Part shown: positions 114-18,077 of the stretch, piece after piece
How positions within the stretch are numbered: position 1 is the first letter of the stretch
Layout: the number at the start of each line of letters is the position of its first letter
Source: a virus
Virus record (IMG/VR): IMGVR_UViG_3300031823_000026
Coordinates: 1-24,384 of that record
Strand: one strand, 5' to 3'
Length of the DNA stretch: 24,384 nucleotides
Made by a program: the position numbers and the translations under genes
Notes under the pieces: generated by a model
Databases searched by the model: none
Told to the model about the DNA's origin: nothing
What the model saw: the letters and a program-made list of their open reading frames with translations, nothing else

Positions 114-388
114 CTGTCTCGCCTATACTCCTCACGAGCCTGTAGCACCTGTACGCTCCCGGCAAGATCGTGCACTCTAGTCGAGATTCCTTCGACTCTT
201 CTCACTAGCCCACCCTGATCGTCCGTTCCGAGCAAGGTGACATGCAGAATGCTCACCGACATTGACAAGTCGCTCACAGCTCCTCGAAGATCGGTTAGCA
301 CCTTCACTGCTTTCCTACCTAGCCACCCCATCAGCGGCAAGCCGATAGTAAGAAGCAGCGTGTTTACTTCACTCGATCCGAAGGTCAT
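110..388 (-). CDS. Putative holin: one TM segment plus coiled-coil
   Basis: A 92-residue protein. Residues about 8-26 form a hydrophobic segment (VNTLLLTIGLPLMGWLG) followed by basic RK residues. The rest is an amphipathic, heptad-like stretch ending in a charged tail (REEYRRDR). One N-terminal TM helix plus a cytoplasmic coiled-coil just upstream of an endolysin is typical of small phage holins and related lysis proteins, and that position is the main argument. I chose the ATG at 388 because it overlaps the stop of the upstream gene (ATGA). It could instead be a virion or lysis-accessory membrane protein; no holin family signature was recognised. Confidence 0.55.
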   Translation of the reverse strand: MTFGSSEVNTLLLTIGLPLMGWLGRKAVKVLTDLRGAVSDLSMSVSILHVTLLGTDDQGGLVRRVEGISTRVHDLAGSVQVLQAREEYRRDR

Positions 389-1086
389 GGCTCTTGAATA
401 TCCCAAAAGATGCCGTCAGGCTTACGCAGCGTTGCGAAGTCTGGCGACAAGGTTGGTATCTCAACAGCTGAGTCGACGGCCTCGGTCTGCTCGTGTTCCT
501 CAACAGGCTTGTCAGCAACCCACTTATCGAACGCGTCGTGGTGATATGTCGCTTTCGCTTTGTCCTGAGCCTCGTCCTCGTAGTAGAGCGCCGATGCGAG
601 AATCACCATCCCTCGATGCCACGACAGCGGAATCACTGGCACATCTGATGTCTGCGTCAGCGCCGAGTAGATCACCTTATACACGAACTCGATGCAGTAC
701 GCGCCATCTGGCGGCGGTAGCACCTGGAAGTACGACTCAATGTACGTCCACTTATCCGGCTTACCGTTCTGTATCAAGTTGTTCGGGCTCGCGTTGTAGT
801 CCTGCTCTGCGAGAACATTCGTGCCGACGTACGTTAGCTCACGGCCATTAGTCCTATCCCAGGCCTTAAAGATCACGTCGGTTAGCTGGCTAACGCTATA
901 CTTGTCCTGCCCAACTACTGTCGTGAACTGAGCTCTCGCTCTACGCCGCTTGAACTTGTACTTGTCAAAGATCTCCTGCCCCGCGTCGTTAATGTGCTGG
1001 TCAAGATTCGGCGTATCCGGCACGTCTGTCGTGCTCGGATTCCCGATCCTTATCCGCAAGCGACTTCTAAACTCGCTTAGATTCAC
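385..1086 (-). CDS. Head-tail connector / adaptor-like protein
   Basis: A 233-residue protein. The N-terminus (LSEFRSRLRIRIGNPS, then DQHINDAGQEIFDKY) matches the general pattern of phage adaptor proteins: a helix, an RxRxG-P turn, then a second helix with hxxhINxAxxEI that lines the connector ring. The middle is beta-rich (YFQVLPPPDGAYCIEFVYK) and the end acidic. By analogy it would sit below the portal or between connector and tail tube. The GTG start at 1086 is preceded by GAGGAGG at good spacing. Its place after the tail-surface genes and before lysis, far from the portal, is unusual for a connector, so the exact role is uncertain. Confidence 0.5.
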   Translation of the reverse strand: MNLSEFRSRLRIRIGNPSTTDVPDTPNLDQHINDAGQEIFDKYKFKRRRARAQFTTVVGQDKYSVSQLTDVIFKAWDRTNGRELTYVGTNVLAEQDYNASPNNLIQNGKPDKWTYIESYFQVLPPPDGAYCIEFVYKVIYSALTQTSDVPVIPLSWHRGMVILASALYYEDEAQDKAKATYHHDAFDKWVADKPVEEHEQTEAVDSAVEIPTLSPDFATLRKPDGIFWDIQEP

Positions 1087-1096: not shown

Positions 1097-1756
1097 CTAC
1101 ATGCACGGCGCTTGGAACGGCACGATGATCGCTACGTAGAAGCAGAACTCCTTTGGCTGAGACTCCCAGTTGGGCTCTGCTAGGATGACGATTAGCCCTA
1201 GCGACTCCCAGTTCGGGAAGCGCGGTGCCTGAATCAGCGACGTCAGCGACTCCCAGTTCGGAAATCTTGGCGCCTGAATCAGTCCTAGCGCTTCCCAGTT
1301 CGGATATCTCGCCGCAGCGACGTTCTGCTGCGATAGCGACTCCCAATTTGGGAACCTTGCAGCAGGAACTATAGCTAAGGCCTCCCAGTTCGGGAACCTG
1401 TTTGCAATGAGAGCAGATACCGCTTCCCAGTTAGGGAATCTTGCGCTGCTAAGAAGCCCTAAAGCCTCCCAATTCGGATATCTAGGCGCCGCAATCGCTC
1501 CTAATGCCTCCCAATTAGGATATCTCGGAGCAAAAATGCCTCCGAGAGCCTCCCAGTTGGGATACCGAGGCGCTGCAATGCCCATTAGCGCTTCCCAATT
1601 TGGGTATCTCGGCGACGAAACAGGGCTTATCGCCTCCCAGTCAGGGAATCTAGGCGCAGCGACGCCTCCTAAAGCCTCCCAGTTAGGAAAGCGAGGTGCG
1701 AATATCCCGCCTAGCGCTTCCCAATTAGGGAACCTATTCGCCGTTACTACTGACAT
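1097..1756 (-). CDS. PNWEAL tandem-repeat protein, probable virion surface or fibre protein
   Basis: A 219-residue protein, almost all repeats. After MSVVT come 14 units, mostly 14 residues long, with consensus A-P-R-(F/Y)-P-N-W-E-(A/S)-L-G-x-I-x. Units 10, 12 and 13 are 15-16 residues and unit 14 is degenerate. Repeats end near residue 198, followed by a short tail ending VPFQAPCM. The motif PNWE recurs in the 633-residue protein two genes upstream. Synonymous positions differ between units: Pro of PNWE uses CCA, CCC, CCG and CCT, and Asn uses AAT and AAC. This shows old repeats held by protein-level selection. I recognise no family. A trimeric beta-structured shaft or spike is one inference. 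It overlaps the upstream gene by TGATG; no strong SD is seen. Confidence 0.8.
   Translation of the reverse strand: MSVVTANRFPNWEALGGIFAPRFPNWEALGGVAAPRFPDWEAISPVSSPRYPNWEALMGIAAPRYPNWEALGGIFAPRYPNWEALGAIAAPRYPNWEALGLLSSARFPNWEAVSALIANRFPNWEALAIVPAARFPNWESLSQQNVAAARYPNWEALGLIQAPRFPNWESLTSLIQAPRFPNWESLGLIVILAEPNWESQPKEFCFYVAIIVPFQAPCM
1185..1741 (-). repeat. 14 coding repeats of about 42 bp (PNWEAL units)
   Basis: On the plus strand the repeats appear as a periodic cTCCCA(G/A)T(T/C)NGG core about every 42 bp, from TCCCAGTTGGG near 1178 to TCCCAATTAGGG near 1721. The units have diverged at third codon positions and differ in spacer length (42-48 bp), always by multiples of three, so the reading frame is preserved. 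They are coding repeats, not a CRISPR array or iterons. Confidence 0.9.
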
Positions 1757-2526
1757 CAGGTCGTATTACCGCTTAGTTGAATCTCCAACTGCGAGCCGGA
1801 GACTCCGTAGTCAAACGCTCCGTCATTCGCGAGTAGCGCTTGCCTGACCCAGATGCCGATGTAGCTGCCGTTCGTCAAGTTCTGACTATTCGGCACGTTG
1901 ATCGCAGTGCCAACTCCCTGAAACGTGATGCCTGCTGGCGCCGTCAGTCGGTTCGTGATCGTGTTCACGTCGTTTAACGCAGTCTCGAGGCCGATGCTGA
2001 TGCGTCCCGAAGGGTCAGCGACCAGCGTTACTGTTGCGCCTGTTAGCGTTAGCGATGCATCAGTGTTCTTGAAGAACACCTTGTCGTACCTCGTCACCGC
2101 GGTCGAGCTCGACGCTGATTTCTTGAACAGCGCGGTGTCCTTGTAGTAAGGATGCCCAGCGCTGTTGAACCCGCCGATCAGCGTGCCAGTGCCCGTACCT
2201 TGGTATACACTGATCACGCCTGCTGGCAGCGACGCGAACGTAACGTCGAGGATGCGCTGATAGGTGTTGACAGAGCTAACCTCAGTCGTTCCGTTCATAG
2301 CGAGCGTCTCAGTGGTATAGACGCCACTAGCGGTCCTGCCGCTGATCGTGATGTTCATCGTATCGCCACTGTTCGTCGACACGAAGCTAATCACAGCCGC
2401 AGCGGTTAGATGATTGATCGCTCCGCAGCCGCATGTGAGATCAATAGCTCCGCCGCCTGTGCTCACATCGTCATTCGGCCTGTTCACAGCCGCGAGGAAT
2501 ACTAACTCAGCATTTGTGATTGACAC
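1756..2526 (-). CDS. Beta-rich virion structural protein, unknown
   Basis: A 256-residue protein made mostly of Thr/Ser/Gly/Val-rich stretches such as TMNITISGRTASGVYTTETL and SLTLTGATVTLV, the look of a beta-sandwich tail or head-surface protein. The N-terminus has a CGCG motif at about residues 32-35. I do not recognise the family. The GTG start at 2526 has a strong SD (GGGAGG) five bases upstream. It lies between the two PNWE-containing proteins, so it may be part of the same appendage. There is no signal peptide or TM segment. Confidence 0.7.
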   Translation of the reverse strand: MSITNAELVFLAAVNRPNDDVSTGGGAIDLTCGCGAINHLTAAAVISFVSTNSGDTMNITISGRTASGVYTTETLAMNGTTEVSSVNTYQRILDVTFASLPAGVISVYQGTGTGTLIGGFNSAGHPYYKDTALFKKSASSSTAVTRYDKVFFKNTDASLTLTGATVTLVADPSGRISIGLETALNDVNTITNRLTAPAGITFQGVGTAINVPNSQNLTNGSYIGIWVRQALLANDGAFDYGVSGSQLEIQLSGNTT

Positions 2527-2536: not shown

Positions 2537-4438
2537 CTAGCAGGTGCAGTTCGGGTCTATGGGTGCCCATGAAGTGAACGGCACCGTAATCGGAGCCACG
2601 TCTGTGAACCCCGGCGCAGGACACGTCGAGCTCGTCGCTTCCCAGTTTGGTGAGCGCACAGCGACCACTGGCGGTATCGCGTGGCCGGCAATAGAGATGA
2701 CATGTGTCTTCGCCGGGCGTATCCGCTGCTGAACGATCGTAATCTGCGGCGCGAGGCGCAGTGGTACCGTCGAAGGCGCACCATGCACATAGATGACGTT
2801 CGTCTTCGCCGGACGATGAGCCACCTGCACCACATGCACCTGCACCGTTGGCGGCTGAGGTGGCGGAGGCGGCACTGCCGCGTTGCGTATAAAGACGAAC
2901 TTGCCGTACGCTGGGCGGTGCTGGACCTGCACGACATGCACTTGTGGCGCGAGCTTTGCGGGTACAACAGACTCCGCACCGCGAAGCTGTACGATGCTCG
3001 TCTTTACATGCTGCCTTGAGCGCTCGACAAGGACCGCCGTGTACTGCGGCGCGCTCGGCGCTATTAGCCCGCCAGGATTGTGTTGCGAGATAACGTGCGT
3101 AGCAGGCGGGCGGATTCGAGCCTGCACGACATGTATCTGCTGCGGAGGTGGTGGAACTGCCGGTGCCACAAGCGGGCTGCCCCGCAGGAACACAACGCGC
3201 GAGAAGAACCGTCCACGAGTCGCTGGCGACGGTCCTGCTACCGCAGGTGGCGCAGCCGGCGGAGCCGGGGCTCCCTGTATGTAAACTACACGCGTCGTAG
3301 GCGGACGAATCCGAGCCTGTACCACATACGGCTGTGCAGGTAGCTTCTGCGGAACAGTCGACTTCGCGCCATGAACATAGACGACATGCGTCGGCTGCGG
3401 CTTGTTGCGAGCCAGGACGACATGCATCTTCGGCGCTGGCGTAAACTGACCGCCGCGTAGCGCGATGACATGCGTAGGCGCAGGACGATTGCGTACCTGG
3501 ACGACAACTGGCTGAGTCGGCAGTCGCTGTGGAACGGTAGACGGTGCGCCATGTATGTAGATAACATGCGTGCCTGGCCGATGCGGCTGAGCGGCCTGCA
3601 CGATGTGTATGCGACTGTTCGCAGGCGCAGCCGGCGGCACGATACCACCGCGAAGCTGCAACACTCGCGAGAATAGCCTGCCTCGCGTAGCAGGTGGGAT
3701 GCCAGCCGTAGGCGGCGGAACAACGACTCGCGGAGCGTGTAGGAATACGATCATCCCTACCGCTTGATGCGCTCGTCGTGCGGTCGTCCGAGCGACGCTA
3801 ATGATCTGCGATACACCAGCGAGCAACGGGCGAAGCGCGGCAGTGATGCCGTTGTTCAGCGCTGCGACTGACGAAGTCGTCGTCTTAGCCGCCGTTGCGC
3901 CAGCCGCTACAGCGAGGAAGTCCCCGCTATCCATAGACTGCGGATCACTCGTGCCACCTTCCGCGCCGTTCATTCGTTCAGTGAACGTCTGTCCACTAAA
4001 CGTCGCGCTCTGCGCCTGGAAGCCGCAGATACAGACACAGACTGCGCCAGGCGTCTTGGTCGTGATCGAAGGGCACGTTCCGGTCACCGACGATGTATTG
4101 ACACTGTTCGTCGCTGCCACGTCCATCGGAGTGTTAGGATCAACTCCGGAGTAGCCAAGAATCCAGCCGATAGCTGTAGTGCTCGTGAAGCCGAAGGCGT
4201 TACTCGCTACGTTGCCTAAGGCCCAGTACGCTGCTGTTCCACAGGTCGCACCGTTGTCTGACTTTGCGATCAGCGTCCAGCCAGTCGGCGGAGTAATCGT
4301 AATGCCTGTCCCACCGTCATACTCGAAGCATGCGATCAGTATATCCGTCGGGAGCGTACCGGCAGGATTAGCAGGGGTGAGTGTCGTCCCTGCATCCATC
4401 AAGACCTGCGCCGATGCCGCTCTAAACGCTATCGCCAC
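2537..4438 (-). CDS. Large Pro-rich repeat virion protein with beta-domain head and PNWE tail
   Basis: A 633-residue protein in three parts. Residues about 1-205 are a beta-domain (DILIACFEYDGG, GWTLIAKS, LGYSGVDPNTP) resembling both halves of the 502-residue protein at 5387-6895. Residues about 206-594 are roughly a dozen imperfect 28-36 residue units with core VVQxRxRPxxTHVIYxxGA and Pro-rich linkers (VPQKLPAQP). The last 39 residues contain PNWEA, then ITVPFTSWAP and a Cys-rich end (DPNCTC), resembling the end of the PNWEAL repeat protein. It is probably a tail-surface or fibre-like protein, anchored by one end; function is unknown. The GTG start at 4438 directly follows the upstream stop and no good SD is visible, so the start is uncertain. 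Confidence 0.75.
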   Translation of the reverse strand: MAIAFRAASAQVLMDAGTTLTPANPAGTLPTDILIACFEYDGGTGITITPPTGWTLIAKSDNGATCGTAAYWALGNVASNAFGFTSTTAIGWILGYSGVDPNTPMDVAATNSVNTSSVTGTCPSITTKTPGAVCVCICGFQAQSATFSGQTFTERMNGAEGGTSDPQSMDSGDFLAVAAGATAAKTTTSSVAALNNGITAALRPLLAGVSQIISVARTTARRAHQAVGMIVFLHAPRVVVPPPTAGIPPATRGRLFSRVLQLRGGIVPPAAPANSRIHIVQAAQPHRPGTHVIYIHGAPSTVPQRLPTQPVVVQVRNRPAPTHVIALRGGQFTPAPKMHVVLARNKPQPTHVVYVHGAKSTVPQKLPAQPYVVQARIRPPTTRVVYIQGAPAPPAAPPAVAGPSPATRGRFFSRVVFLRGSPLVAPAVPPPPQQIHVVQARIRPPATHVISQHNPGGLIAPSAPQYTAVLVERSRQHVKTSIVQLRGAESVVPAKLAPQVHVVQVQHRPAYGKFVFIRNAAVPPPPPQPPTVQVHVVQVAHRPAKTNVIYVHGAPSTVPLRLAPQITIVQQRIRPAKTHVISIAGHAIPPVVAVRSPNWEATSSTCPAPGFTDVAPITVPFTSWAPIDPNCTC

Positions 4439-4897
4439 TTACGGATGATCCACGAGTGGATGGTCAGGGTCTGTTGAGAGTATGTCACGCGTCGCGTCTG
4501 GATCGATGATCTCCTCACGTGGACGAGCGGTAAGCAGATGCCTCATCATCGCCTCGTCAGAGATCGTCGGGTCAATAGTGCCAACGTGCCTGGTGAACGC
4601 CAGCAGCACTGATCCCGGCTGAAGCACTCTACCACCTGCCATCGCTTCAACCGCCGCGATCCTATCCTTCGCATGAGCGATCATCGACTCCTGTCCATGC
4701 TTCGCTACCCACACCCGCGGGAAGACGACGCACACTCCGCGCTCGATCCACTGAGCCACTGCTACATCTCTATCCGGTTCATCCCACGTCCGCCAGCGCG
4801 CCACTGGCCTCAGCACCGGCGGTGGATAGGGACGAGCCGGAGCTGCCGCCTCCTGTGGCGGAAACGGCAGCTTCCGAACGATAGGCTCGTCGGCCAT
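4439..4897 (-). CDS. Hypothetical protein in the virion gene block
   Basis: A 152-residue protein that I do not recognise. The first 35 residues are Pro/Ala-rich (PFPPQEAAAPARPYPPP). The middle is a mixed alpha/beta stretch (VAQWIERGVCVVFPRVWVAKHGQESMIAHAKDRIAAVEAM) and the end is Asp-rich (DATRDILSTDPDHPLVDHP). It is the only gene in this block that is not Thr/Ser/Gly-rich, so it may be a chaperone or linker rather than a surface protein. The ATG at 4897 sits four bases after the upstream stop; the stop touches the GTG of the 633-residue gene. Confidence 0.6.
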   Translation of the reverse strand: MADEPIVRKLPFPPQEAAAPARPYPPPVLRPVARWRTWDEPDRDVAVAQWIERGVCVVFPRVWVAKHGQESMIAHAKDRIAAVEAMAGGRVLQPGSVLLAFTRHVGTIDPTISDEAMMRHLLTARPREEIIDPDATRDILSTDPDHPLVDHP

Positions 4898-4900
4898 CTG

Positions 4901-5371
4901 TTACTCTTCGAACTCGATGTACGTCCGGCTGTTGACCACTGCTGGAGCGTTGTCTCTCAGCGCGATCCCGAGCAGCGTCGCGCTGCCGGAGAGGTTCGTC
5001 TGCGCCTCGCGACCAAGCGGAGACTGAATCACCAACAGTCCGCCGTTAGGCGTCACGAGCCAGTGCTTGAACGGCGTTAGCACTGTCGGCTCAGCGGTGT
5101 AGTCGGTCTGACCCGTCGCCGTCGCTGCGCCGATGCCTCGGATGAGGTACGGTGTGAACGCAGTGCTCGTGCCTGCCGTCGCCTGCGTTGAGCCGACAAG
5201 CTCCACCAACACCGGCACGTTGCTCGCCGTCACGCCGTCGAACGAGTTGCTGATCTCACACAGAATGCACTGGCGGTTCGTGCCAGGAATCACGTTGCAG
5301 CATGTCTTCGCCGTGTTGGCTACAAGAGCCGTCGCGGTCGTCGAACTCTTCACTACGAAACCCGCTGCCAT
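4901..5371 (-). CDS. Virion structural protein, unknown
   Basis: A 156-residue Thr/Ala/Val-rich protein. The N-terminal half holds a short Cys cluster (KTCCNVI, QCILCEISNSF). The second half has beta-like strands (HWLVTPNGGLLVIQSPLG, SATLLGIALRDNAP). Small proteins of this composition are common among phage head or tail surface subunits, but no specific family was recognised. The ATG start is preceded by GGGAGG at about five bases. It is expressed with its neighbours as part of the late operon. Confidence 0.65.
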   Translation of the reverse strand: MAAGFVVKSSTTATALVANTAKTCCNVIPGTNRQCILCEISNSFDGVTASNVPVLVELVGSTQATAGTSTAFTPYLIRGIGAATATGQTDYTAEPTVLTPFKHWLVTPNGGLLVIQSPLGREAQTNLSGSATLLGIALRDNAPAVVNSRTYIEFEE

Positions 5372-5386
5372 ACGACCTCCCTGAGG

Positions 5387-6895
5387 TTATGTGACTGACC
5401 GCTGAACCGCCTGCGACCTCACAGTAATCTGCGGCGGCCCCCCTGCTACTGCCGGCGCCTTAAACGCCGCGATGATGCCAGCGAAGAATCCTGCGCCTCC
5501 TACGTCATTCGTAGTATTCCATGTCCAAGTAATCGCTGTACTATCCGGGTTGTAGTAGTGCCCCTTCCCGTCGTCTAGCGTGAAGTTCGACAAGCCCCCG
5601 TCTTGATCGCTCGCAAGTCCGTTGCCGAAGAGGGCCGCCGCTGGAGCACTCACTCCCGTCATTGTGCCCGTAAACTGATCCGACCCGCAGACTACGAGTC
5701 CAGCACCCGTCGGCGAGAACCCTGTTACGACCTGAAGCGTTGCGCTCTGTGTCGTCTGATTCCCGTCGAACGCAGCATCCTTGTCATACGGCGAAGCCGG
5801 CGCGCCCGCAATGTCCATGAACCTAAAGTGAATCCCATCTCCCGAGACCATTGCGCTCGCGAGCGTGATCGTCACCGTCATGTTCGGATCAGATGTTGTA
5901 TTATCCGCGTGTAGCATGTTCTGAACAGTGTTTGTCGCACTCGCATTGTGATGCGGACTGTTTGTTGTGTGCGAGTAGCTATTGCTCTTCGAATCAGTAA
6001 CCGTCGAGATATGCTGCAGCGCCGTGGACGACGAGCAGATGAACAGATTGCCAAACGTCGGCACCTGAATCGCCGCGAAGCCAGGCCCGTTGCCCATCAC
6101 TCCGTTGAACGCCCAGCCAAAGTGATGTACGCCCTTAACGTACATGCCAGTGTTCGTCCCGCCGCTCGAACCGGCAGTAAACGCCACCGCGACTGTCGTG
6201 CAGGAATGTGCGCTATTGACAGTGATCGTCGGCGTGATCGAGACCGCTGACGACTGCACGTAGAACTGGCACGGTTGCCCCTCAACACCGTCCGCTGAAA
6301 GGAAGGTGAAGTTAGTGCCTACCGTGAAAGTATACGGTGTGCTGCCACTGGCATCAGCAGCATACTGCATGATGAGACAGCCAGACGACGTTGGCGTGAA
6401 GGCGCCTGTCGCCCACGCGGTATTGCCAGTAACATCAGCTCCTGACGATCCTGCCGTCCACGGAGTGCTCGTCGCGACTCCAGCCCACTCGGAGAAGGAC
6501 ACACAGACATCGCCGCCCGTCTGACCACCGCCAAAGGTGATTGTCAGAAGCTTCGCGCCAACAGCGGAGTTCGCAAAGGCGAAGCAGTAGACGTTTCGAT
6601 TGCCGCCTGTCTGCGACTTAGCGAGCGTCCATGCGCCGTTCACGTCGTCAGACGCAGCGACTGTGATCCCTGCCACAACGTCGCATGTTACAAACGCGAC
6701 GAGGCAGTTACCCGAGATCGTCTTGTTTGGAAACGGTACCTTGAAGGTGACCGCTGCGCCTGCATCTCGACGCCCCGTGTTGTGATACTGCACGAGCGTA
6801 GGAGTGCTGACTCCACCCTGGATAACTAACCGTCTGTATTCACCCTTCCACCAGATATAGCCCTTTGGACGCCATGCGCAGTGCATCGCCTTCAT
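5387..6895 (-). CDS. Virion protein with two tandem beta-domains
   Basis: A 502-residue protein. The N-terminus is basic and Trp-rich (HCAWRPKGYIWWKGEYRRLV). Two similar Thr/Ser/Gly-rich beta-domains follow. The first has NCLVAFVTCD, GAWTLAKS, FSEWAGVATSTPW and CLIMQYAADAS; the second has NLFICSSST, TDSKSNSYS, FMDIAGAPASPYD and GAGLVVCGSDQF. The same layout is found in residues 1-205 of the 633-residue protein, so this is a shared module. The C-terminus (PPQITVRSQAVQRSVT) resembles the start of a repeat unit of that protein (APQITIVQQRIRP). It is probably a tail or fibre component. I chose the ATG at 6895 because it overlaps the upstream stop (ATGA); a longer start to 6946 would overlap the upstream gene by 55 bases. 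Confidence 0.7.
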   Translation of the reverse strand: MKAMHCAWRPKGYIWWKGEYRRLVIQGGVSTPTLVQYHNTGRRDAGAAVTFKVPFPNKTISGNCLVAFVTCDVVAGITVAASDDVNGAWTLAKSQTGGNRNVYCFAFANSAVGAKLLTITFGGGQTGGDVCVSFSEWAGVATSTPWTAGSSGADVTGNTAWATGAFTPTSSGCLIMQYAADASGSTPYTFTVGTNFTFLSADGVEGQPCQFYVQSSAVSITPTITVNSAHSCTTVAVAFTAGSSGGTNTGMYVKGVHHFGWAFNGVMGNGPGFAAIQVPTFGNLFICSSSTALQHISTVTDSKSNSYSHTTNSPHHNASATNTVQNMLHADNTTSDPNMTVTITLASAMVSGDGIHFRFMDIAGAPASPYDKDAAFDGNQTTQSATLQVVTGFSPTGAGLVVCGSDQFTGTMTGVSAPAAALFGNGLASDQDGGLSNFTLDDGKGHYYNPDSTAITWTWNTTNDVGGAGFFAGIIAAFKAPAVAGGPPQITVRSQAVQRSVT

Positions 6896-7740
6896 GCGCC
6901 CCACCCTGGGTCTTGAGTCCACCATACCTGCACGAGACCCCACCAAATGCTCTGAGCGAGCACGGGACCACTGTTAATGTTCCGTCCGAGCGCCAAGCCG
7001 TAGATGTTATTCGCCGCTGGGCTAATACCAGTTCGATTTACGCACAGGTTGTTATCGAACCACCAAGCGTCGACTCCATTGCCGCTTCCGCACTTCCAGT
7101 GCATCCGATAGCGATGCCAGCCGCCATCTCTCGGCGCGAAGCCAGCGCTCGCGTAGCTGACGTTGAGGTTCGTACTACCCGTGGGCGGATACGATGCAAT
7201 GAAGTTGAGGTCCTGCGTGCCCGTCCCGCCCTCTACCCCAAGCGACCAGCGGTCTCCCGTACCGTTGATCCGTCCAAAGATGAACTTATAGCCAGGATCG
7301 CATCCACCGCCTGTTTGTGAGCGGTTATCTGCCGCTGACCAGCCACTCGAAAACATCGCCCAAATCTCAAGCCAGATTTCGACTTGAGTCGAAGGTAGGT
7401 TGATATTCCGCCCTACAGACGGATCATTCGGTGAGGCGCATACTGGCGAAGCCGGCTGATCGTAGCGCATAGACTGGCTCAGGCTGTGTCCCCCGGCGTT
7501 CAGCCCTACGCTGGTATCTAGCCAGATCGTCCCCGTGTCAGATGTCGGGCAGCTCCCGTTACCACCGCTGTTCCCACACACGTCTTCGCCTGTAGACCAC
7601 CAGGGCTTCGATCCGCCAGACATCAGGTTCGCCGTGCTGCTATACGACGAGAAGTCCTCGATTAGGTCTGCAGGCGGTCCGCCTCCAGCAGCAGGTGGCG
7701 TCACTAATCCCCCATGCCGAGACGACTGAGCAACGATCAC
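6892..7740 (-). CDS. LamG / concanavalin-like jelly-roll virion protein
   Basis: A 282-residue protein with a Gly/Pro-rich N-terminal linker (PPAAGGGPPADLIEDFSS) and then a jelly-roll-like domain. Typical pieces are QVEIWLEIWAMFSSGW, GYKFIFGRINGTGDRWSLGVEG, DGGWHRYRMHWKCG, then DAWWFDNNLCVNRTG and YGLALGRNIN. The strand order (wide-face strand, W-H-R-Y-R, W-x-D-N/G-x, G) fits LamG or glucanase/lyase-type lectin folds. It may bind or trim host surface polysaccharide. No catalytic Glu/Asp pair can be named, so binding is the safer call. The GTG start overlaps the upstream stop (GTGA). Confidence 0.6.
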   Translation of the reverse strand: MIVAQSSRHGGLVTPPAAGGGPPADLIEDFSSYSSTANLMSGGSKPWWSTGEDVCGNSGGNGSCPTSDTGTIWLDTSVGLNAGGHSLSQSMRYDQPASPVCASPNDPSVGRNINLPSTQVEIWLEIWAMFSSGWSAADNRSQTGGGCDPGYKFIFGRINGTGDRWSLGVEGGTGTQDLNFIASYPPTGSTNLNVSYASAGFAPRDGGWHRYRMHWKCGSGNGVDAWWFDNNLCVNRTGISPAANNIYGLALGRNINSGPVLAQSIWWGLVQVWWTQDPGWGA

Positions 7741-8111
7741 GAAGCCACCATAGTGCCGCCTGCCGAGGCGAACGCAAGGGCATTGTTGAGCACGAAGCGT
7801 ACCTGGGCGTTACTAGTCGCTACCACCCGCTGCGTCGGATCACCAGTAGCTCCAAGCACCACGCCGAACTCGAGCGTAGTGTTGAGTTGTAGCCCTTCCA
7901 TGAAGGGTCCAGGGAACGTAGCAGCGCCTAGCACCTCCCACGTAGTGCCACCGTCTGGCGAGTAGTCACACTCGATGGTAAGGCCTAGCGTCAAGTTCGC
8001 CATGTCGAGTTCTAGCACATAGCGACTACTGCCCTCCGGCACGCTCCATGGACCTAGCGTCGAAGCGCCAAGAACGATCGTTAGCGGAGCTATTACCGTC
8101 GTCGCTGCCAC
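7737..8111 (-). CDS. Small beta-structured virion protein
   Basis: A 124-residue protein composed of beta-like strands: STLGPWSVPEGSSRYVLELDM, LTIECDYSPDGGTTWEVLG, VRFVLNNALAF. The SPDGGTTW turn is common in phage tail or decoration proteins. No family is assigned. The GTG start overlaps the upstream stop by one base (TAGTG), so it is coupled to the gene before it. There is no TM segment or signal peptide. Confidence 0.65.
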   Translation of the reverse strand: MAATTVIAPLTIVLGASTLGPWSVPEGSSRYVLELDMANLTLGLTIECDYSPDGGTTWEVLGAATFPGPFMEGLQLNTTLEFGVVLGATGDPTQRVVATSNAQVRFVLNNALAFASAGGTMVAS

Positions 8112-8449
8112 TAGTCAACCTCGAGGAGCGTGAAGACCTTGAATACTCGATCGGCCTTGACAGGTATCCCGCTGATGACTCGCATCGCATGGCAAGCCGG
8201 TAGCGGGATGTTGAACGCTGACCGCGGCGAAGCGACTTTCACAGCGTCGCCCTTATGGTAGAACCAGCACCAGTCAGCATCCTTCTCCGGTTGCACCTCG
8301 AACTGCATCGTCTCGCCAGTTAGCTCCGCTGGCGCGTAGATAGTCACCACCGCTATCGTCCCCGTACGAGCGTGAATCTCGATAGGGTTCGAGGCCTTCT
8401 CGCCCTTCTTGATGACTAAGTCACCAAGACGATGTTGATGCTTAGCCAT
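8111..8449 (-). CDS. Small virion protein, paralogue of the upstream gene (copy 2)
   Basis: A 112-residue protein that is a diverged duplicate of the product at 8452-8823. Both begin with a MA-H-H-LG-L-I pattern and share (V/T)I(F/Y)APA-L in the middle, then a W, and near the end N-IPL followed by RVF-(T/V)(F/L)TL--(Q/L)VD. It probably forms a beta-sandwich ring or decoration subunit in the virion. The ATG at 8449 lies three bases after the upstream stop, with GAGAG as weak SD. An extended start at 8611 is possible but would overlap the neighbour by 160 bases. Confidence 0.65.
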   Translation of the reverse strand: MAKHQHRLGDLVIKKGEKASNPIEIHARTGTIAVVTIYAPAELTGETMQFEVQPEKDADWCWFYHKGDAVKVASPRSAFNIPLPACHAMRVISGIPVKADRVFKVFTLLEVD

Positions 8450-8451
8450 GA

Positions 8452-8823
8452 TCAGCTCTCGTAATCCGCGTCGACTTGAGCGCAGAGCGTGAACACTCTG
8501 GCTCCACCGACCGCGCTTGTCGCGAACATGCGAAGCGACCTGAACCCGGCGACGAGTGGAATATTCACGGCTAGACCTGCCCCAATAACTATCGTCGTGC
8601 CAGGCTGCCACTGCAGCACGCTCCAGACCTCGTTCGGAGAACGGATCGGTGAGACCTCGACGTTGATGACCTCAGGCAGCGTAGCTGGCGCAAAGATCAC
8701 CAGGCTCGACATAGCGCCTAGCACAGCCTGCACCTGTCCAGGGCTTGAGCCTGTGTACGCAGGACTGAATGTCCCGCCGTTCGGGATGGTAAGCGTCCCT
8801 AGGTCATGTAGATGACGAGCCAT
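8452..8823 (-). CDS. Small virion protein, paralogue of the downstream gene (copy 1)
   Basis: A 123-residue protein with strands SSLVIFAPATLPEVINVEVSP and VIGAGLAVNIPLV, ending RVFTLCAQVDADYES. The overall pattern matches the next gene downstream, so these are tandem duplicates. No database family is recognised. The start at 8823 overlaps the end of the upstream gene by about 20 bases. An SD (GGAG) is present but distant, about 13 bases from the ATG, so coupling to upstream translation is likely. Confidence 0.65.
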   Translation of the reverse strand: MARHLHDLGTLTIPNGGTFSPAYTGSSPGQVQAVLGAMSSLVIFAPATLPEVINVEVSPIRSPNEVWSVLQWQPGTTIVIGAGLAVNIPLVAGFRSLRMFATSAVGGARVFTLCAQVDADYES

Positions 8824-9100
8824 TTGATAGTATCATCTCCACAGTCGTCGGCGTCTGAACCGTGGCTCTACTACCGTCCTTAACTACTCGGTAGCGTGCG
8901 AGTTTCTTCTCGTCTAGCGAAGCTGCGATGCCTTCGGACAAAAGTAGGCTCCAGGCGATACCTCCTTTGTCAACGATCTCTAAGATGACACGCTCTTCTT
9001 CTCCCACAGGATAGGCGACGACAGCCACCTCGTTCCCTTGAGCTGGCTGCCAATCGCCTTCCCATGAGCCCGTCACTCCGACTGCGATGAGTCTCTTCAT
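8804..9100 (-). CDS. Hypothetical small protein just downstream of a palindrome
   Basis: A 98-residue protein (MKRLIAVGVTGSWEGDW...). It has a small beta-rich body (NEVAVVAYPVGEEERVILEIVDKGG), a helix with DEKKLARYRVVKDG and a hydrophilic tail. No family is recognised. The ATG at 9100 was chosen because it is the first start after the upstream gene ends at 9126. The AGGAG is unusually close (one base away), so the start is uncertain. The perfect 18-bp palindrome at 9108-9125 fills the gap before it. Confidence 0.55.
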   Translation of the reverse strand: MKRLIAVGVTGSWEGDWQPAQGNEVAVVAYPVGEEERVILEIVDKGGIAWSLLLSEGIAASLDEKKLARYRVVKDGSRATVQTPTTVEMILSNGSSST

Positions 9101-9107
9101 ACTCCTC

Positions 9108-9125
9108 TTGTCCAAATCTGGACAA
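9108..9125. promoter_or_regulatory. Perfect 18-bp palindrome, copy 1 (TTGTCCA-AATC-TGGACAA)
   Basis: Two perfect 7-bp arms separated by AATC. It fits exactly between the stop codon of the 255-residue virion gene (ends 9126) and the SD of the next gene. It is one of four copies with identical arms in the window. The form is that of a dimer-bound operator; no such protein is known here. Confidence 0.6.
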
Positions 9126-9893
9126 CTATGCGCCGCCGCTATACTCCGGGTAGTCTGAAAGATACCACACGTCGTAGTTCTGCACGCCGTTCGGCGCTGA
9201 CGCCGGGGCGTACGTGCCTCTACGATCCTGCGCTGCCCCCGCAGCGGGAACTGAGATGACGCCTGCGGTCGAGATTGTGATCCCTGTAAGGGCCAACAGT
9301 CCCGTCGCGACAAGCGCTCCGTTCACGATCTCCTTCTCCGCCGCCCCAGCGAGGCCAGCAGCGGTGCCCACTGAACAGATCACGTCCAAGCCGAGCACTA
9401 CGCCATCACCAACTGTGATCGTATCGGTAGAAGCGTTACCTGCCGAAGTGATGGTGATAGATGTGATCCTCTTGAACGCGCACGCGGACGTGTAGGTCTT
9501 CGATGTGCCTGTGGCCGAGACGGACCAGTTCTCACTGATCGCGACACCGTACACGTCGGTACCGAAGATCGTACCGCTCACTGCGACAATGGACGTTGCG
9601 TGAGTGACTGTAATCACCACGTTACGCCCACCTGTGAACGGCCCGTAGGTCGGCAACAGCGTCGCTGCCGTACCTGCGGTATTCGCCAACGTCCCGTTCA
9701 ACGGCAGGTTGGTCGTTACTGCGTTCGGCCCCGACGTTGCCGTCGTGATATCATTTGCTGCCGCCGTCGAGGGAGCAGGCCACGTTTGGTGATACACCAG
9801 TGACCCACCCCTCTGGATGCCGCGGCGGTTGGTTGTGACCGCCCTACCGCTAGGGTAGGGGTAGGCCGAACCTGTTAATGGTTTCAGCGGCAT
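9126..9893 (-). CDS. Virion structural protein following the major capsid gene
   Basis: A 255-residue protein. After a basic N-terminus (TTNRRGIQRGGSLVYHQTW) the body is strongly Thr/Ala/Gly/Val-rich beta structure: RNVVITVTHATSIVAVSGTIFGTDVYG, ITSITITSAGNASTDTITVGDG. It comes directly after the major capsid protein, where head fibre, decoration or head-completion proteins usually lie. No specific family is named. The ATG at 9893 has AGGAG six bases upstream. There is no signal peptide. Confidence 0.65.
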   Translation of the reverse strand: MPLKPLTGSAYPYPSGRAVTTNRRGIQRGGSLVYHQTWPAPSTAAANDITTATSGPNAVTTNLPLNGTLANTAGTAATLLPTYGPFTGGRNVVITVTHATSIVAVSGTIFGTDVYGVAISENWSVSATGTSKTYTSACAFKRITSITITSAGNASTDTITVGDGVVLGLDVICSVGTAAGLAGAAEKEIVNGALVATGLLALTGITISTAGVISVPAAGAAQDRRGTYAPASAPNGVQNYDVWYLSDYPEYSGGA

Positions 9894-9902
9894 GTCTGTC
9901 TC

Positions 9903-10796
9903 CTATGGCGAGCCGTAGACACCGCGCCAGTCTCCGAAGCCTGACCCGTTTCGACGAGTCAACTTGAACTTAGCGTCACCTGTCTCGAAATCGTCTGTAT
10001 TCGTTAAACGAGGTGCGCGACGGTCAAAGTAATTGAGATCGTGGTTGTCTGCGATGATATACCACGACAACGGGTCCGTGAGATAGTGCGACAGCAGCGG
10101 CGTCAACCCTTCACGGGACAACTGGTTGATGTCGTTCTGGTTGCTGCCTGGCAGCTTCTCCGATTTCAGGATCTGATTGACGATCCAGTGGTCGCCAGGG
10201 TTGTAGAGCACGTACTTCGGAATGAACATGACGGGCAGGCCAGACTCGTCGTTCAAGGCATGGAACGCCTCGATGGCAGCCTGAACTGCGGGCAAGCTGA
10301 TGCCGGTGTCCGTCACAGGGCGATTAGTCGCTGACAGGCCACGCAGCGTCGTGTGGCTCGTCGAGATCAGCGACACGCCTGCCTCGAAACCGTTGATCGC
10401 TGTGTTGAACGCGTTGTTCAGCACTGCGTGCGCCACGATCTCGAAGTTGTTCCTTGCGGAGCGACCCAGAGCCTTCGACATCTTCGCTCCCATGATGCCG
10501 TACAGATCGTCCTCCATCATCTCCTCGGTGATTCTGAATCCGAGGCCGAACGTGGTCCAGAGATAGCGGACCAGCACTCCCTGAATCGCGTCCTGGAACG
10601 TAACCGGCTGACCTTCCGCCTTGCTCAACAGTGTGCCGAAACCGGCGATGGGGAAGTCTTCCTCATACGCCCGTTGGCTCTTATTCATGTTGATCCAGCG
10701 ATCGCCCTCGGTCGGACGTTCCTTGTACGTCTCGAAGACGATTTTCCTAAAGCCAGGCGCCAATAAGTTCGAAAAGGCGCCACGAACCATGACCAT
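9903..10796 (-). CDS. Major capsid protein (HK97-fold, Mu gpT-like family)
   Basis: A 297-residue protein. The N-terminus (FSNLLAPGFRKIVFETYKERP), then KSQRAYEEDFPIAGFG, resembles Mu gpT-like and related HK97-fold capsid proteins as I remember them. Later features are also typical: TFGLGFRITEEMMEDDLYG in the spine-helix area and LPVMFIPKYVLYNPGDHWIVNQIL in the A-domain. No delta-domain or protease is visible; a separate scaffold gene lies upstream, which fits. The ATG at 10796 has GGAG eight bases upstream; a second ATG lies at 10790. It builds the icosahedral head shell. Confidence 0.8.
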   Translation of the reverse strand: MVMVRGAFSNLLAPGFRKIVFETYKERPTEGDRWINMNKSQRAYEEDFPIAGFGTLLSKAEGQPVTFQDAIQGVLVRYLWTTFGLGFRITEEMMEDDLYGIMGAKMSKALGRSARNNFEIVAHAVLNNAFNTAINGFEAGVSLISTSHTTLRGLSATNRPVTDTGISLPAVQAAIEAFHALNDESGLPVMFIPKYVLYNPGDHWIVNQILKSEKLPGSNQNDINQLSREGLTPLLSHYLTDPLSWYIIADNHDLNYFDRRAPRLTNTDDFETGDAKFKLTRRNGSGFGDWRGVYGSP

Positions 10797-10812
10797 TGTC
10801 TAGGCTCCTTTC

Positions 10813-11310
10813 CTAGCTTGAGAGTGCCTGTAGGTTGGCATCGAGGAAGCGAACGTAGAAGATACCGTTCACTACGTCGATGTCAATGACTCTGACCCGC
10901 GTATTCGCGGTAGTAGAAAGCACCTGCCAGAACGACCGGATACCTGCACCAGTCGAGATGTTCACGTTCGCGATGTCCTGCGCTCGTGTCAGGTATGCTA
11001 CCGCCGGTGTTACGAGACTGCTCAAGCCCACGGTGACGTCGCCAGTGAGAATCTCCACCAGCATCTGATTCACCGGATACGGCTGAGGCTTCAGACCGAG
11101 GGCAACTTGCGGTGCCGTTGGCGCAAAGCCCAAACAGATTCCGAGAATCGCTGCCGGGTTCGCTCCGCACTTCTTGACGTTGTTATCCGCCGTATCGAGG
11201 AACACTAGGTCCCCCGGCTGCGACGTGTCCGTTGAGAGGAACGTATACTGCCCTACCCGTCCCTCCGCTTGCGGATTGCCGTGAGCGATGAAGGCTGGAA
11301 ATTGCGACAC
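10813..11310 (-). CDS. Head decoration-like protein
   Basis: A 165-residue protein between scaffold and major capsid genes, the standard place for capsid decoration proteins. Its N-terminal pattern (FIAHGNPQAEGRVGQYTFLSTDTSQPGDLVFLDT) and the AAILGICLGFAPT segment recall the DUF2190 / lambda gpD-like type, in which a beta-barrel subunit cements the shell at its symmetry axes. The GTG start at 11310 follows GAGGAGG by four bases. The assignment is by position and appearance; no signature residue settles it. Confidence 0.6.
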   Translation of the reverse strand: MSQFPAFIAHGNPQAEGRVGQYTFLSTDTSQPGDLVFLDTADNNVKKCGANPAAILGICLGFAPTAPQVALGLKPQPYPVNQMLVEILTGDVTVGLSSLVTPAVAYLTRAQDIANVNISTGAGIRSFWQVLSTTANTRVRVIDIDVVNGIFYVRFLDANLQALSS

Positions 11311-11319
11311 TATGCCTCC

Positions 11320-11814
11320 TCACTCGTCCACTAAGAGACGCTCGACCGGGACTCTGATGCCATGCCGATCCCGGAGCTCTTTCGAGACTGCCTCTGCTAC
11401 GCTTCGCACCTCTGTCCGATGAGCCTCCAGACGACTCTTGTGAAGCTCGCGCTGCCGTTCGACTTCCTCCTCGTGCTTTTCACGAGAGACCCTCATCAGT
11501 CTCACCTCACCCACCTGTGCACGGACACCTGCAGCTTCGCACTCCCCTTCGGGCACGGCTTCGTACCCATCGTCTACCGAGATTTGGATCTGCCCAGCGT
11601 CGTCCGTGTTGTTGTAGCGGTAGTGATGCTCAGGGTCTTTCTTCTCCAACGGCGACGCGTCGAGCATCCTCGCCCGAGGCGTGCGCTCACTAGCGCCGCT
11701 ACGCTTCTGACCCTCGACTCGACTGAGCTTCCGAGCAATGTCTTCGAGCTGCCTCCGAAGATCAGACCTCGTTGGCTCAGGAGCCTTCTCGTCTACTGGC
11801 CTGCTTTCCGCCAT
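11320..11814 (-). CDS. Charged helical protein near the scaffold gene, unknown
   Basis: A 164-residue, very charged protein (E, R, K, D, S). It has coiled-coil-like segments at residues about 17-38 (RSDLRRQLEDIARKLSRVEG) and about 108-150 (SREKHEEEVERQRELHKSR, VAEAVSKELRDRHG). It lies between scaffold and decoration genes and could be a scaffold partner or a head-assembly factor. No family is recognised. The ATG at 11814 overlaps the scaffold gene's end by 22 bases and has GGAGG about ten bases upstream. Confidence 0.65.
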   Translation of the reverse strand: MAESRPVDEKAPEPTRSDLRRQLEDIARKLSRVEGQKRSGASERTPRARMLDASPLEKKDPEHHYRYNNTDDAGQIQISVDDGYEAVPEGECEAAGVRAQVGEVRLMRVSREKHEEEVERQRELHKSRLEAHRTEVRSVAEAVSKELRDRHGIRVPVERLLVDE

Positions 11815-12632
11815 AGAACGTAGTCCTCCTCTGACATACCCATCGTCTTGGCGATCTCCTTCGCCACAGGATCAAGACCTCCGTCGCTCGTCATGACGGG
11901 GGCTCTGATGGTGGACACTGTATGCGCTCCAGCACCTGCGGCCTGCGCTGCGCGAGCATCCTCGGCAGCTTTCGTCTTGGCGCGCTCTGCGCGGTCGTTG
12001 ACGAGAGTGTCGAAGTTTCCTGTCTGTCCCCTGAACCAGGCCATGAAGTCGTCCCAGTTCTTGAGAGACGTCAACGCCGCAGGGTTCGGTAAGCGCTGAA
12101 TCGCCTCGTCGATCTTCCGGCCGAAGACACGGAACTCGTCAGGGTACTTACGCTCGGCCTGTTCACGAGCGGTCTCAGCGTTGTTCTGCGCGAGGGAGCC
12201 CAGACGGGAGTTGACGTTGTCAATAAGAACCTTCTCCCGCTTGGCAAGAAGCTTGTCAATCGCAGCGAGGGGATTGTCTTGGAAGAGCTTGTTCATCTCC
12301 TCCGTAGACAGGTCCTTATCCTCAGCCGAGATTGGCGCAGCCGACGCAGGCGTAGCGCGAACTGCGGCAAGCGCACGCTCACGAGCTTCCTCGCTGATAC
12401 GTAGCGCTTCCGAGAGCGCCTTCACGCGAGGATCGTCAGGCAGCGCAGCTTGCGCTTCGGCGCGCATCTTCGCGTCGGCTTCAGCTTTCTTCTTCGCTTC
12501 AGCTTCCTCAGCAGCTTTCTTCTCAGCTGCCTTGGTCTCCTCGAGCTTCTTCCCTACGTCCTCGAGATATACCTCTTCCCTCAGGCCGGCAAGGACCTCT
12601 TTATCGCTAACCGGCGCGGCAGTATCAGCCAT
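11793..12632 (-). CDS. Capsid scaffold-like protein
   Basis: A 279-residue protein. Residues about 20-75 are an uninterrupted Lys/Glu/Ala coiled-coil (EETKAAEKKAAEEAEAKKKA). The middle is mixed (LSTEEMNKLFQDNPLAAIDKLL) with more helix, and the last 40 residues contain TMGMSEEDYVLWRKAGQ, a small helix typical of scaffold C-termini that bind the capsid protein. Composition and position between portal and capsid genes support scaffold. The start is set at 12632 (MADTAAP) because GAGGGAG lies six bases upstream; an earlier ATG at 12662 lacks an SD. It would be lost or degraded on maturation. Confidence 0.7.
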   Translation of the reverse strand: MADTAAPVSDKEVLAGLREEVYLEDVGKKLEETKAAEKKAAEEAEAKKKAEADAKMRAEAQAALPDDPRVKALSEALRISEEARERALAAVRATPASAAPISAEDKDLSTEEMNKLFQDNPLAAIDKLLAKREKVLIDNVNSRLGSLAQNNAETAREQAERKYPDEFRVFGRKIDEAIQRLPNPAALTSLKNWDDFMAWFRGQTGNFDTLVNDRAERAKTKAAEDARAAQAAGAGAHTVSTIRAPVMTSDGGLDPVAKEIAKTMGMSEEDYVLWRKAGQ

Positions 12633-12906
12633 CTCGTTCTCCCTCAAAGTTCGAGTTATCAATCTCGTGAATCAACGTTCTCGGCATCTCCAGTGCGTCC
12701 CTCAGCCCCTTAACCCGTCCTTGCAAGTTCCGCAAGTTGGGGTGATCCTCCTCCGCTTCCAGGAGTCGCTGGCTTTGCTGGAGTAGGGCCTCGAGCCGGG
12801 CCTGTACCAACTGGAAGGCCCTGTTGCCCTCCAGGTCCACCATTTCGTCCCTGAGCGTCTCCGCCGTTGCCTTGTCCTGGGGCAGCTCCGGGCTGAGCGT
12901 GGGCAT
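12625..12906 (-). CDS. Small coiled-coil protein overlapping the portal 3' end
   Basis: A 93-residue protein (MPTLSPELPQDKATAETLRDE...) in a different frame from the portal, overlapping its last 197 bases. Residues about 10-75 form amphipathic helices (NRAFQLVQARLEALLQQSQRLLEAEEDHP). The start at 12906 has GGAG about ten bases upstream. It ends eight bases inside the scaffold start, linking portal and scaffold translation. No family is recognised; it could be an assembly helper. The longer start at 12966 is less likely because it lacks an SD. Both this frame and the portal frame look coding. Confidence 0.6.
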   Translation of the reverse strand: MPTLSPELPQDKATAETLRDEMVDLEGNRAFQLVQARLEALLQQSQRLLEAEEDHPNLRNLQGRVKGLRDALEMPRTLIHEIDNSNFEGERDG

Positions 12907-14830
12907 TGAGATATTTCTCCAAGTCTGGTAAGTAGTCCTCTGGATTACGAATATCGTACTTCGCAATCAGGTCGCGGAACAGCTTGCGGGCCGTGGACAT
13001 GACTTCCTTCACCATCTCGGTATACTCCGGCATGCCCTGCTTAGACGCTACGATACCCGCTTGTCCCGCTTCGAGCACTTTCTCAAGGTACTGCATCATC
13101 ACCTGAATGAGCGACAACTGCATCTGCTGCTGAGCTTGGCGATTGGTCGAAGCGTCGGTAACGGTCAAGTCAACCGCAAACGCTCCGTTGATGTTCTCCT
13201 GAGAGACCATCTTGAAGAACTGCTTAACGTCTGTAGCGATCTTGTCATCGCCGAAGATGAGGTCCTCGATCCCGCCAGTGCCGAACTGAATCCAGATGCT
13301 AATGCAGAACTCCATGATGTCAGCAAAGCCCTGGCGGAGATTCTCTAAGACCTCCTCAACACGCTGGGTGCCCTCTTTGATAAGAGCCAAGGTACTCGTA
13401 GCGGTGGCTCGAGTGCCAATGATCGGAGACTCCCGTCCTTGCAGATAATCACTAACACCCGTCCGCTTCTCGACCATGCCGAAAAGGTTCTGCCGTTCGG
13501 CGAGCGTGGAAGGGTAGATATCCCCGCTAGCGAACGGTATGAAATCTTTTGTAGGCTCGTCGACAAAGAACACTCTCCCAGCGTAGAGACGCGGCACCTG
13601 CTCGATGCCAGAGTTCTTCTTCGCGATGAACATGCGTATGTTAGCGATATACGCATTGTCCTGCGCCATACGGTGCCACTTCGTGATCGCGTCTTGAAGG
13701 GACTTGACCATCTCCATGATGCCCAAGCCGAGCATGGTATCACTAGCGATCGTATACGGCACGATCGTGTAGGGCTTCCGCTGATGGAAGTACCAGTTCA
13801 GCCGGAGCTGGAGAAGGGTCCGAGTGTCCTTGTGGTACGTAGCGACGAGGTGCGAAGGCGGCTTGCCTGGGTAGATCGCGTAGTCAAACCACGCCTCGTA
13901 GACAGTGATCTCGTTGGCAAAGGTAGTGCGAAGCGCGTGCTTGTTAGCATCCTCACGGGCTTGCTCGACAGCAGTGCGAACGCCAATAGTCTGCTGGCTT
14001 CGCACGGATTCGACGTTAGTGATCTTACCTGCGGCTTCGAGAATCTTGAGCGCTTCGTAAGTCGTCCGCTGACGCTCGAAGATGATCGGGCACTCGTCTG
14101 GTGTCTCATAGAACGGCGGGAAGAGGAGATCACCTAGGTGGATGCCGAAGACTCGCGGGCCAGCAAAGCGAACCTGCGGGACTTCGACGACCTCTGAGTA
14201 GTCGTCGTTGTAGCGGAAGACCTTGTACTCGTCACGGTCGTAGACGGTCTTAAAGGCCATAGTACCGAGTTTGACGCACTCGAGAATGCGCGGAGACGCA
14301 ACGCGACGAAGCTCGAGGTAGTTCTTCTGGTACTTGTCTACGAAGGCCTGCACAGACGGCATCAGCTCGAGGATGTCCTTGCGAAGCCCTTTCCAAGTGA
14401 ACACTGGGTCTTGCTTGAAGATACCAATGTCCAGCCTGGCGTGGATAGGATCCACTGCCATCGCGCCGACAGGGATGACCTCCCTCGAGGCGCCGCGGAA
14501 GGGCTCAAACTGGACAGAGTCAGGAGTGACTGCGCGGTAGGCTTTCTCCTGATCGGCCCAAGCGCTTTGTAAGTCCTGCTGAGCAGAGTCGAGGTCATTC
14601 AGCCACTGGTCGAGCCAGATAAGGAGCCGGCTCTTCTGTTCCTCACTGATATCCAAGATCGGCGGAGGTAGCTCCTTCCGCTTAATCGCTGGCGTATCCT
14701 TCGGCTTAGACGTCTCGTCAACCTGCTCAACGAATCCCGCGTCGCGATCGAGAATCGCATGATGCGTGTTCCCAGGCTCGATCTTCGCGTCACGGAACTC
14801 GAATTCGCTAGGAGGAATAGAGGCGTCCAT
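12710..14830 (-). CDS. Portal protein
   Basis: A 706-residue protein, the right length for large podovirus-type portals. Features: an N-terminal linker, a helix-rich body (LLIWLDQWLNDLDSAQQDLQSAWADQEKAYRA), and the segment about 88-130 (VTPDSVQFEPFRGASREVIPVGAMAVDPIHARLD), which I take as the clip-to-wing region. Further on come long helices (MLGLGIMEMVKSLQDAITKWHRMAQDNAYIANIRMF) and a C-terminal Gly/Pro/Gln-rich disordered tail. It forms the dodecameric DNA channel at one vertex. The ATG at 14830 follows the preceding stop by two bases. It is downstream of both terminase genes, as in many phages. Confidence 0.8.
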   Translation of the reverse strand: MDASIPPSEFEFRDAKIEPGNTHHAILDRDAGFVEQVDETSKPKDTPAIKRKELPPPILDISEEQKSRLLIWLDQWLNDLDSAQQDLQSAWADQEKAYRAVTPDSVQFEPFRGASREVIPVGAMAVDPIHARLDIGIFKQDPVFTWKGLRKDILELMPSVQAFVDKYQKNYLELRRVASPRILECVKLGTMAFKTVYDRDEYKVFRYNDDYSEVVEVPQVRFAGPRVFGIHLGDLLFPPFYETPDECPIIFERQRTTYEALKILEAAGKITNVESVRSQQTIGVRTAVEQAREDANKHALRTTFANEITVYEAWFDYAIYPGKPPSHLVATYHKDTRTLLQLRLNWYFHQRKPYTIVPYTIASDTMLGLGIMEMVKSLQDAITKWHRMAQDNAYIANIRMFIAKKNSGIEQVPRLYAGRVFFVDEPTKDFIPFASGDIYPSTLAERQNLFGMVEKRTGVSDYLQGRESPIIGTRATATSTLALIKEGTQRVEEVLENLRQGFADIMEFCISIWIQFGTGGIEDLIFGDDKIATDVKQFFKMVSQENINGAFAVDLTVTDASTNRQAQQQMQLSLIQVMMQYLEKVLEAGQAGIVASKQGMPEYTEMVKEVMSTARKLFRDLIAKYDIRNPEDYLPDLEKYLNAHAQPGAAPGQGNGGDAQGRNGGPGGQQGLPVGTGPARGPTPAKPATPGSGGGSPQLAELARTG

Positions 14831-14832
14831 AG

Positions 14833-15027
14833 CTAGTCAGGCCATCCGAGTGCGTAGCGGTGTCCCATCTTCACATGCCACCTCTTGTGACATACTAGGC
14901 AGACCATGACCTTGGGCCATAGCTCAGCCTCGTCACCGAAGAGGCTTACGGGCGCTAAGTGATGCTCCTGAAGCATGGACTCCTTTCCGCAAACGAAGCA
15001 GCACTTGGCTTCGCCGTTCTGCGGCAA
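14833..15027 (-). CDS. Small HNH-like zinc protein
   Basis: A 64-residue protein with C10xxC13, His22-His23, then C43xxC46-H47 and H51: FVCGKESMLQEHHLAP followed by MVCLVCHKRWH. This order (CxxC, HH, CxxCH) is the HNH/McrA treble-clef layout, but the usual Asn is replaced or not visible, so nuclease activity is uncertain. The start is a TTG at 15027 with AAGGCGG nine bases upstream; no ATG is available in this frame that would keep the first CxxC. It lies just before the portal gene. Confidence 0.6.
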   Translation of the reverse strand: MPQNGEAKCCFVCGKESMLQEHHLAPVSLFGDEAELWPKVMVCLVCHKRWHVKMGHRYALGWPD

Positions 15028-15041
15028 TCCGAACGTCCGCC

Positions 15042-18076: not shown

Positions 18077-18077
18077 G

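Follow-up and report, generated by a model that had tools for sequence, protein, structure and literature searches.

This study concerns a 24,384-nucleotide stretch of an uncultivated virus record (the window), whose terminase, portal, and capsid genes belong to known PHROG families. It contains a gene that encodes little besides a 14-residue unit, and we asked what such a protein might do in a virus particle. The relevant features of the window are the following.

385 to 1086, minus strand: SU10-type head-tail adaptor (PF24175, E 3.6e-18); the gene that follows the repeat gene
1097 to 1756, minus strand: WEAL-repeat protein, 219 aa, 14 units; orthologue at L185:841-1344 (BLASTP 9e-18)
1756 to 2526, minus strand: partner protein, 256 aa, from a family with the motif RYDK...ADPxxRI...T.NR.TAP.G.TF; a longer relative of PHROG 13135 (unknown function)
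2537 to 4438, minus strand: 633-aa virion-cassette protein with an N-terminal region, about seven RPxxTHVI-type repeats, a C-terminal PNWE unit, and the cap-like tail PNWEATSSTCPAPGFTDVAPITVPFTSWAPIDPNCTC
9903 to 10796, minus strand: major capsid protein, which served to find related phages

The repeat gene lies within a virion/tail cassette, as the original prediction had placed it, and its start codon shares one base with the stop codon of the 256-aa gene upstream (TGATG). The further claim that the lysis genes come immediately after it is almost correct. The adaptor gene comes next, and the lysozyme-like and 3TM-holin-like ORFs follow, after a 98-aa ORF, beyond the adaptor of a sister strain (assigned by eye). 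That strain, record IMGVR_UViG_3300031753_000030, is 99.86% identical over window positions 7681 to 20796 and has an identical repeat gene.

The peptide, not the DNA, repeats

The array consists of 14 units, 13 with PNWE and one with PDWE, in agreement with the original description. Successive Trp residues are 14 residues apart in eleven intervals, 16 in one, and 15 in one, and the frame is kept throughout. The unit consensus is [AP]PR[FY]PNWE[AS]Lxx[IL], a hydrophobic W0/L3/I6 pattern runs across the units with strict period, and the protein ends in the cap NWESQPKEFCFYVAIIVPFQAPCM. Series of six TGG codons at exact 42-nt steps occurred five times in the window and never in 100 dinucleotide shuffles.

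The DNA is far less regular, with TRF matches of only 67% in the repeat gene. A codon count bore out the earlier statement that all four Pro and both Asn codons are used across the units; the R, F/Y, A, and L codons also vary. The comparison of synonymous and nonsynonymous differences that had been proposed for the units gave unequal rates: over the RFPNWEAL core, unit versus unit, pS was 0.88 and pN 0.086 (pN/pS about 0.1), whereas the six residues between cores gave a pN of 0.515. An exact dN/dS for the units cannot be stated because pS is saturated. From the low core pN relative to both pS and the inter-core pN we concluded that the repeating entity in 1097 to 1756 is the peptide and not the DNA, which has drifted to saturation; the peptide has indeed been conserved while its codons varied. 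Selection for codon diversity (against recombination) and plain divergence cannot be separated as sources of the codon variety.

The same values bear on the idea that the array has no specific binder and is only a disordered spacer or a linker of low complexity. The failure of AlphaFold2 to give a confident structure would suit such a linker, but the core pN/pS, the spacing fixed at 14, the conserved cap, and the recurrent pairing with one partner family all argue against it, and we regard it as very improbable.

Relatives of the repeat unit

The window protein had no credible family match in Pfam, PHROG, or PDB, and none at E<=10 to PHROG 6079 ('tail protein'). The statement that it belongs to no recognised family is therefore literally true of the protein itself, but it does not hold for the repeat, since at least six other phage lineages have the WE[AS]L repeat, likewise with a period of 14 residues, and four of these relatives match PHROG 6079. 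A pattern for three WE[AS] units recovered several unrelated phages with strict 14-residue arrays. The profile-HMM search proposed with the original prediction likewise found relatives: a profile from the window units alone detected L209 (1.7e-13), L184 (1.7e-5), and L185 (9e-4), with the best reversed decoy at 0.75, and a second-round HMM detected L198 (2e-38), L199 (1e-34), and L254 (6e-56), the last a contig of a Pyrinomonadaceae MAG.

Because these loci had been picked by the WE[AS] pattern, we compared them again with the W, E, and A/S columns left out. Position by position, L209 (p 0.0006) and L185 (p 0.005) matched the window units and L184 did so weakly (0.03); on that test alone, L198, L199, and L254 showed no match. 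L185 is independent of the WE[AS] pattern, as it shares a contig with L156, a locus recovered via its capsid protein. L185 is the nearest relative, and its repeat gene ends just upstream of an adaptor gene 62% identical to that of the window; the window adaptor is 62-73% identical to those of relatives G002 and G007. The terminal cap NWESxx..[FI]CF is common to four proteins, that of the window (NWESQPKEFCFY), L185 (NWESVKEFCFY), and the products of two L209 genes (NWESCKPICF and NWESEQAFCF), and is absent from L184, L198, L199, and L254. The window protein, with W-E-[AS]-L-x-x-[IL] at a 14-residue period, thus belongs to a family of strict period that is present in several unrelated phages and whose nearest members share a cap.

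Arrays with Trp every 14 residues but another motif form a wider class, in which some arrays are part of proteins with lipase or phosphoesterase domains (L200, L071). Compared position by position outside the Trp, the window units gave p values of 0.04-0.8 against these arrays (L080 0.12, L104 0.08, L071 0.04). Because the units do not clearly match by position, the tie of the window protein to the wider class rests on shared neighbourhood.

Several other candidates were discarded. Pfam matches to KRTDAP (keratinocyte) and MOTS-c and a PDB match to TUBGCP6 were below cut-off or due to repeat composition; tblastn of the repeat against INPHARED returned only an RNA-phage replicase at E>=3, that is, by chance; and a match to Verrucomicrobia phage P8625 was dropped as antisense to an annotated gene. 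WE-pattern matches in genome contigs were mostly frame artefacts or other repeats, with only L254 convincing, and in a PNWE double-motif scan of IMG/VR the sister strain had the only true PNWE array. Arrays of the W[DN]S.Y..V 'NSANW' type show 4-3-4-3 heptad spacing, by eye a coiled coil, and differ in kind from WEAL. They occur as long [NS]SANW[DN]S.Y..V arrays of period 14 in L051, L060, L096, and L135, with heptad-like hydrophobic spacing, and are probably coiled-coil fibres.

A partner gene accompanies the repeat gene

The overlapping upstream gene, which the original prediction did not mention, is the main clue to the array. A homologue of it lies close to every non-truncated WEAL-repeat gene. 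A partner-first search with an alignment of four sequences returned nine loci, six on known repeat carriers and three on contigs (L347, L348, L163) that end before the place where an array could be read. When the partner HMM was run over 355 loci plus reversed decoys, it detected, apart from the loci used to build it and their duplicates, only L080, L104, L037, and L058. All four carry Trp-every-14 arrays of another motif (LRWD- or SWRL-like); the array adjoins the partner except in L058, where about 1 kb separates them. Two further carriers, L360 and L361, each with an array, came from a later partner-first scan. The pairing is not universal: the same scan gave L362/L363, in which a partner homologue (3501-4241, 40% identical to that of L104) lacks any array of period 14 within 3.5 kb, and in the first broad scan the majority of Trp-14 arrays had no partner in the flanks covered.

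Short forms of the partner (L080, L104, L037) match PHROG 13135 at about 1e-33, and a profile from the long forms finds the short ones at 5.6e-16 to 3.7e-8. The window partner differs from PHROG 13135 in being the longer form, of about 250 aa, and scores only E 0.016 against it directly; its link to PHROG 13135 runs through the long-form profile. A search of the PDB with the partner profile found nothing, and PHROG 13135 had no match in 396 genomes of the L254 phylum, where a control likewise had none. The WEAL family and some of the wider Trp-every-14 arrays are thus genetically paired with one partner family (1756 to 2526; PHROG 13135). As Trp-unit genes in unrelated phages almost always adjoin the same partner gene, these results suggest that repeat and partner form a two-protein virion component not described before.

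In several relatives, though none was seen in the window, the partner gene adjoins a gene for a small zinc-ribbon-like protein (C[GA].[DN]FN...PFDG....C..C), often situated between two partner paralogues.

L156:17859-18209, L209:10898-11278, L184:151-816 (minus strand), L348:3672-4037, and L163:4480-4854: zinc-ribbon-like protein, beside the partner gene

The pairing in cultivated phages

Among cultivated phages, relatives of PHROG 13135 were found in KVP40-like vibriophages and in Alteromonas schitovirus A5. KVP40 gp15 is 450 aa long; residues 1-222 match the T4 gp15 tail terminator (PDB 4huh, 5.6e-53), and the remainder is a Trp-14 array present as a C-terminal extension. The gene right after gp15 encodes the partner (PHROG 13135, KVP40.0353). 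A long gp15, taken as one covering at least 80% of the KVP40 protein, is present in 52 of the 2,142 INPHARED records with a gp15 homologue, and the partner in 54 records, exactly those 52 plus A5 and a 3-kb KVP40 fragment. As the 52 are close relatives, essentially one clade, they count as one or a few events instead of 52 independent ones. The A5 gene that precedes the partner shows an aromatic periodicity of 14 residues (P 0.004). The array genes are part of virion/tail cassettes; among KVP40-like phages, gp15 itself carries the array as an extension. Virion proteomics of a KVP40-like phage, 6E351A, form part of what PMC12028318 reports.

Structure prediction and the role of the array

The original prediction proposed a solenoid or a triple-beta-spiral-like shaft, and the monomer structure prediction suggested with it was carried out. 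AlphaFold2 gave no confident fold for the repeat protein, either alone (pLDDT 42) or with 49 alignment rows (pLDDT 33), a pseudo-alignment that may be poor, and the two runs disagreed in secondary structure, one showing helices and the other strands. Neither proposal is supported by these models. The lack of a confident fold would fit folding that depends on a partner or on oligomerization and is proof of neither.

A monomeric solenoid, with one beta or alpha coil per unit, would account for the strict period and the W0/L3/I6 pattern. AlphaFold2 is usually good on solenoids, however, and here gave a pLDDT of only 33-42 and inconsistent secondary structure; moreover, the lone unit on the 633-aa protein (2639-2650, minus strand), at its C terminus, cannot form one. 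We consider this fold highly unlikely.

The main alternative to docking, described below, is a homotrimeric, self-supporting fibre shaft, in which three chains would be wound with one unit per step and the partner would be the tip, base, or assembly chaperone. Triple beta-spiral shafts, as in adenovirus fibre and reovirus sigma1, are built of short repeats of about 15 residues with Pro/Gly and hydrophobic positions, and the window repeats are also short, with Pro/Gly and hydrophobic positions. A varying number of units suits adjustable length, the alignment-based model placed one strand in most units (pLDDT 33, unreliable), and the Trp-14 arrays on lipase- or phosphoesterase-domain proteins recall the tail-fibre shafts that carry domains of these types. 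The window repeats differ in their period of 14 instead of the 15 of adenovirus-type spirals, in their invariant Trp, and in the existence of single units. T4 gp15 is hexameric, so trimers formed by the KVP40 arrays, which are tethered to gp15, would need a break in symmetry. Single units on another protein and an array on gp15 are therefore a poor fit to a self-contained trimeric shaft, which, with no confident monomer fold obtained either, we think unlikely.

The reading we prefer, and hold tentatively at little short of an even chance, is that the window protein is a virion protein of almost only 14-residue Trp units that serves as a multivalent scaffold on which partner subunits dock. The array is low in information, its period is fixed, it has 1 to about 40 units on varied host proteins, and its partner family is constant; these properties, together with the absence of a confident monomer fold, led us to favour docking over a self-made shaft. 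The repeat protein would be translated right after the partner, and each unit would be a short docking strand, anchored by its Trp, for one partner subunit, so that the window protein would offer 14 sites and its 633-aa neighbour one. Partner subunits assembled along the array would then form a fibre or decoration on the tail or neck, with a length that can be adjusted, and the cap may terminate or anchor the array. We infer docking from the pairing, which admits other readings: the partner could instead act as a chaperone or a cap, or form the adjoining segment of a fibre.

A broader proposal, possible but more doubtful, is that aromatic-every-14 arrays are a general phage docking rail, fused to or beside tail and neck proteins and loaded with PHROG 13135-family subunits according to unit count. 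The window protein would be its free-standing 14-site form and KVP40 gp15 its neck-anchored form.

Relation to described systems

Among known families the nearest to the repeat is PHROG 6079, whose Trp-14 repeats are N-terminal and precede another conserved region. It has the same Trp every 14 residues, and its repeat part matches L198 (4e-20), L199, L184, L254, L080, and L104, but the window protein has nothing like its C-terminal region. KVP40-like gp15 resembles the window in having a Trp-14 array followed immediately by the partner gene and differs in that the array is fused to gp15 and its motif is DIDWSTR-like instead of PNWEAL. The SU10-type podovirus cassette (genus Kuravirus; PMC9509320) has its likeness in the PF24175 adaptor directly downstream and in the portal and terminase families of the window.

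The repeat class thus overlaps PHROG 6079, and what looks new is the two-gene module. No description of the pairing was found in the open-access literature searched, which leaves out most subscription journals. Trp-repeat arrays and PHROG 13135 have been annotated apart, merely as 'tail protein' or 'unknown', and the pairing joins them in one module that spans unrelated phages: SU10-type podovirus-like, tape-measure-bearing, T4-like vibriophage, and schitovirus. With KVP40 the module can be tested in a cultivated phage, both for the identity of the protein bound to the gp15 extension and for the purpose of the structure. If one subunit does dock per unit, the module would be a simple virion decoration encoded by length and copy number.

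Variation in the surrounding cassette

Window positions 5423-7680 have no counterpart in the sister record, which carries other versions of two virion-cassette genes there (L155:13117-15545). The two strains are otherwise 99.9% identical. In the swapped cassette, a 519-aa and a 597-aa protein both end in VRSQAVQRSVT, and 4000-5422 is divergent too. Gene-version swaps between strains are often seen in host-recognition cassettes. This resemblance would suit a multivalent receptor binder, whose exposed Trp residues would bind a host surface sugar while the partner attached the array to the virion, and repeated aromatics are compatible with sugar binding. Receptor-binding parts usually diversify, however, and the core is very uniform although the neighbouring genes swap; the neck position of the KVP40 array, on gp15, would also be odd for primary receptor binding. 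We therefore consider such a role quite improbable.

In L162, a relative by capsid, the slot before the adaptor is occupied by a pectin-lyase-like protein (by eye), and in L160 by a 1,413-aa protein with a phosphodiesterase match; the slot is therefore variable. The syntenic counterpart of the 633-aa protein in L156 has three WE units at its C terminus. The roughly seven repeats of the 633-aa protein itself (2537 to 4438, minus strand) are of the VVQxRxRPxxTHVI type with irregular spacing, a second type of repeat adjoining the PNWEAL protein. Farther along the window, an HNH endonuclease gene (15717-16088, minus strand; phrog_144, 1.3e-11) lies just downstream of the large terminase gene.
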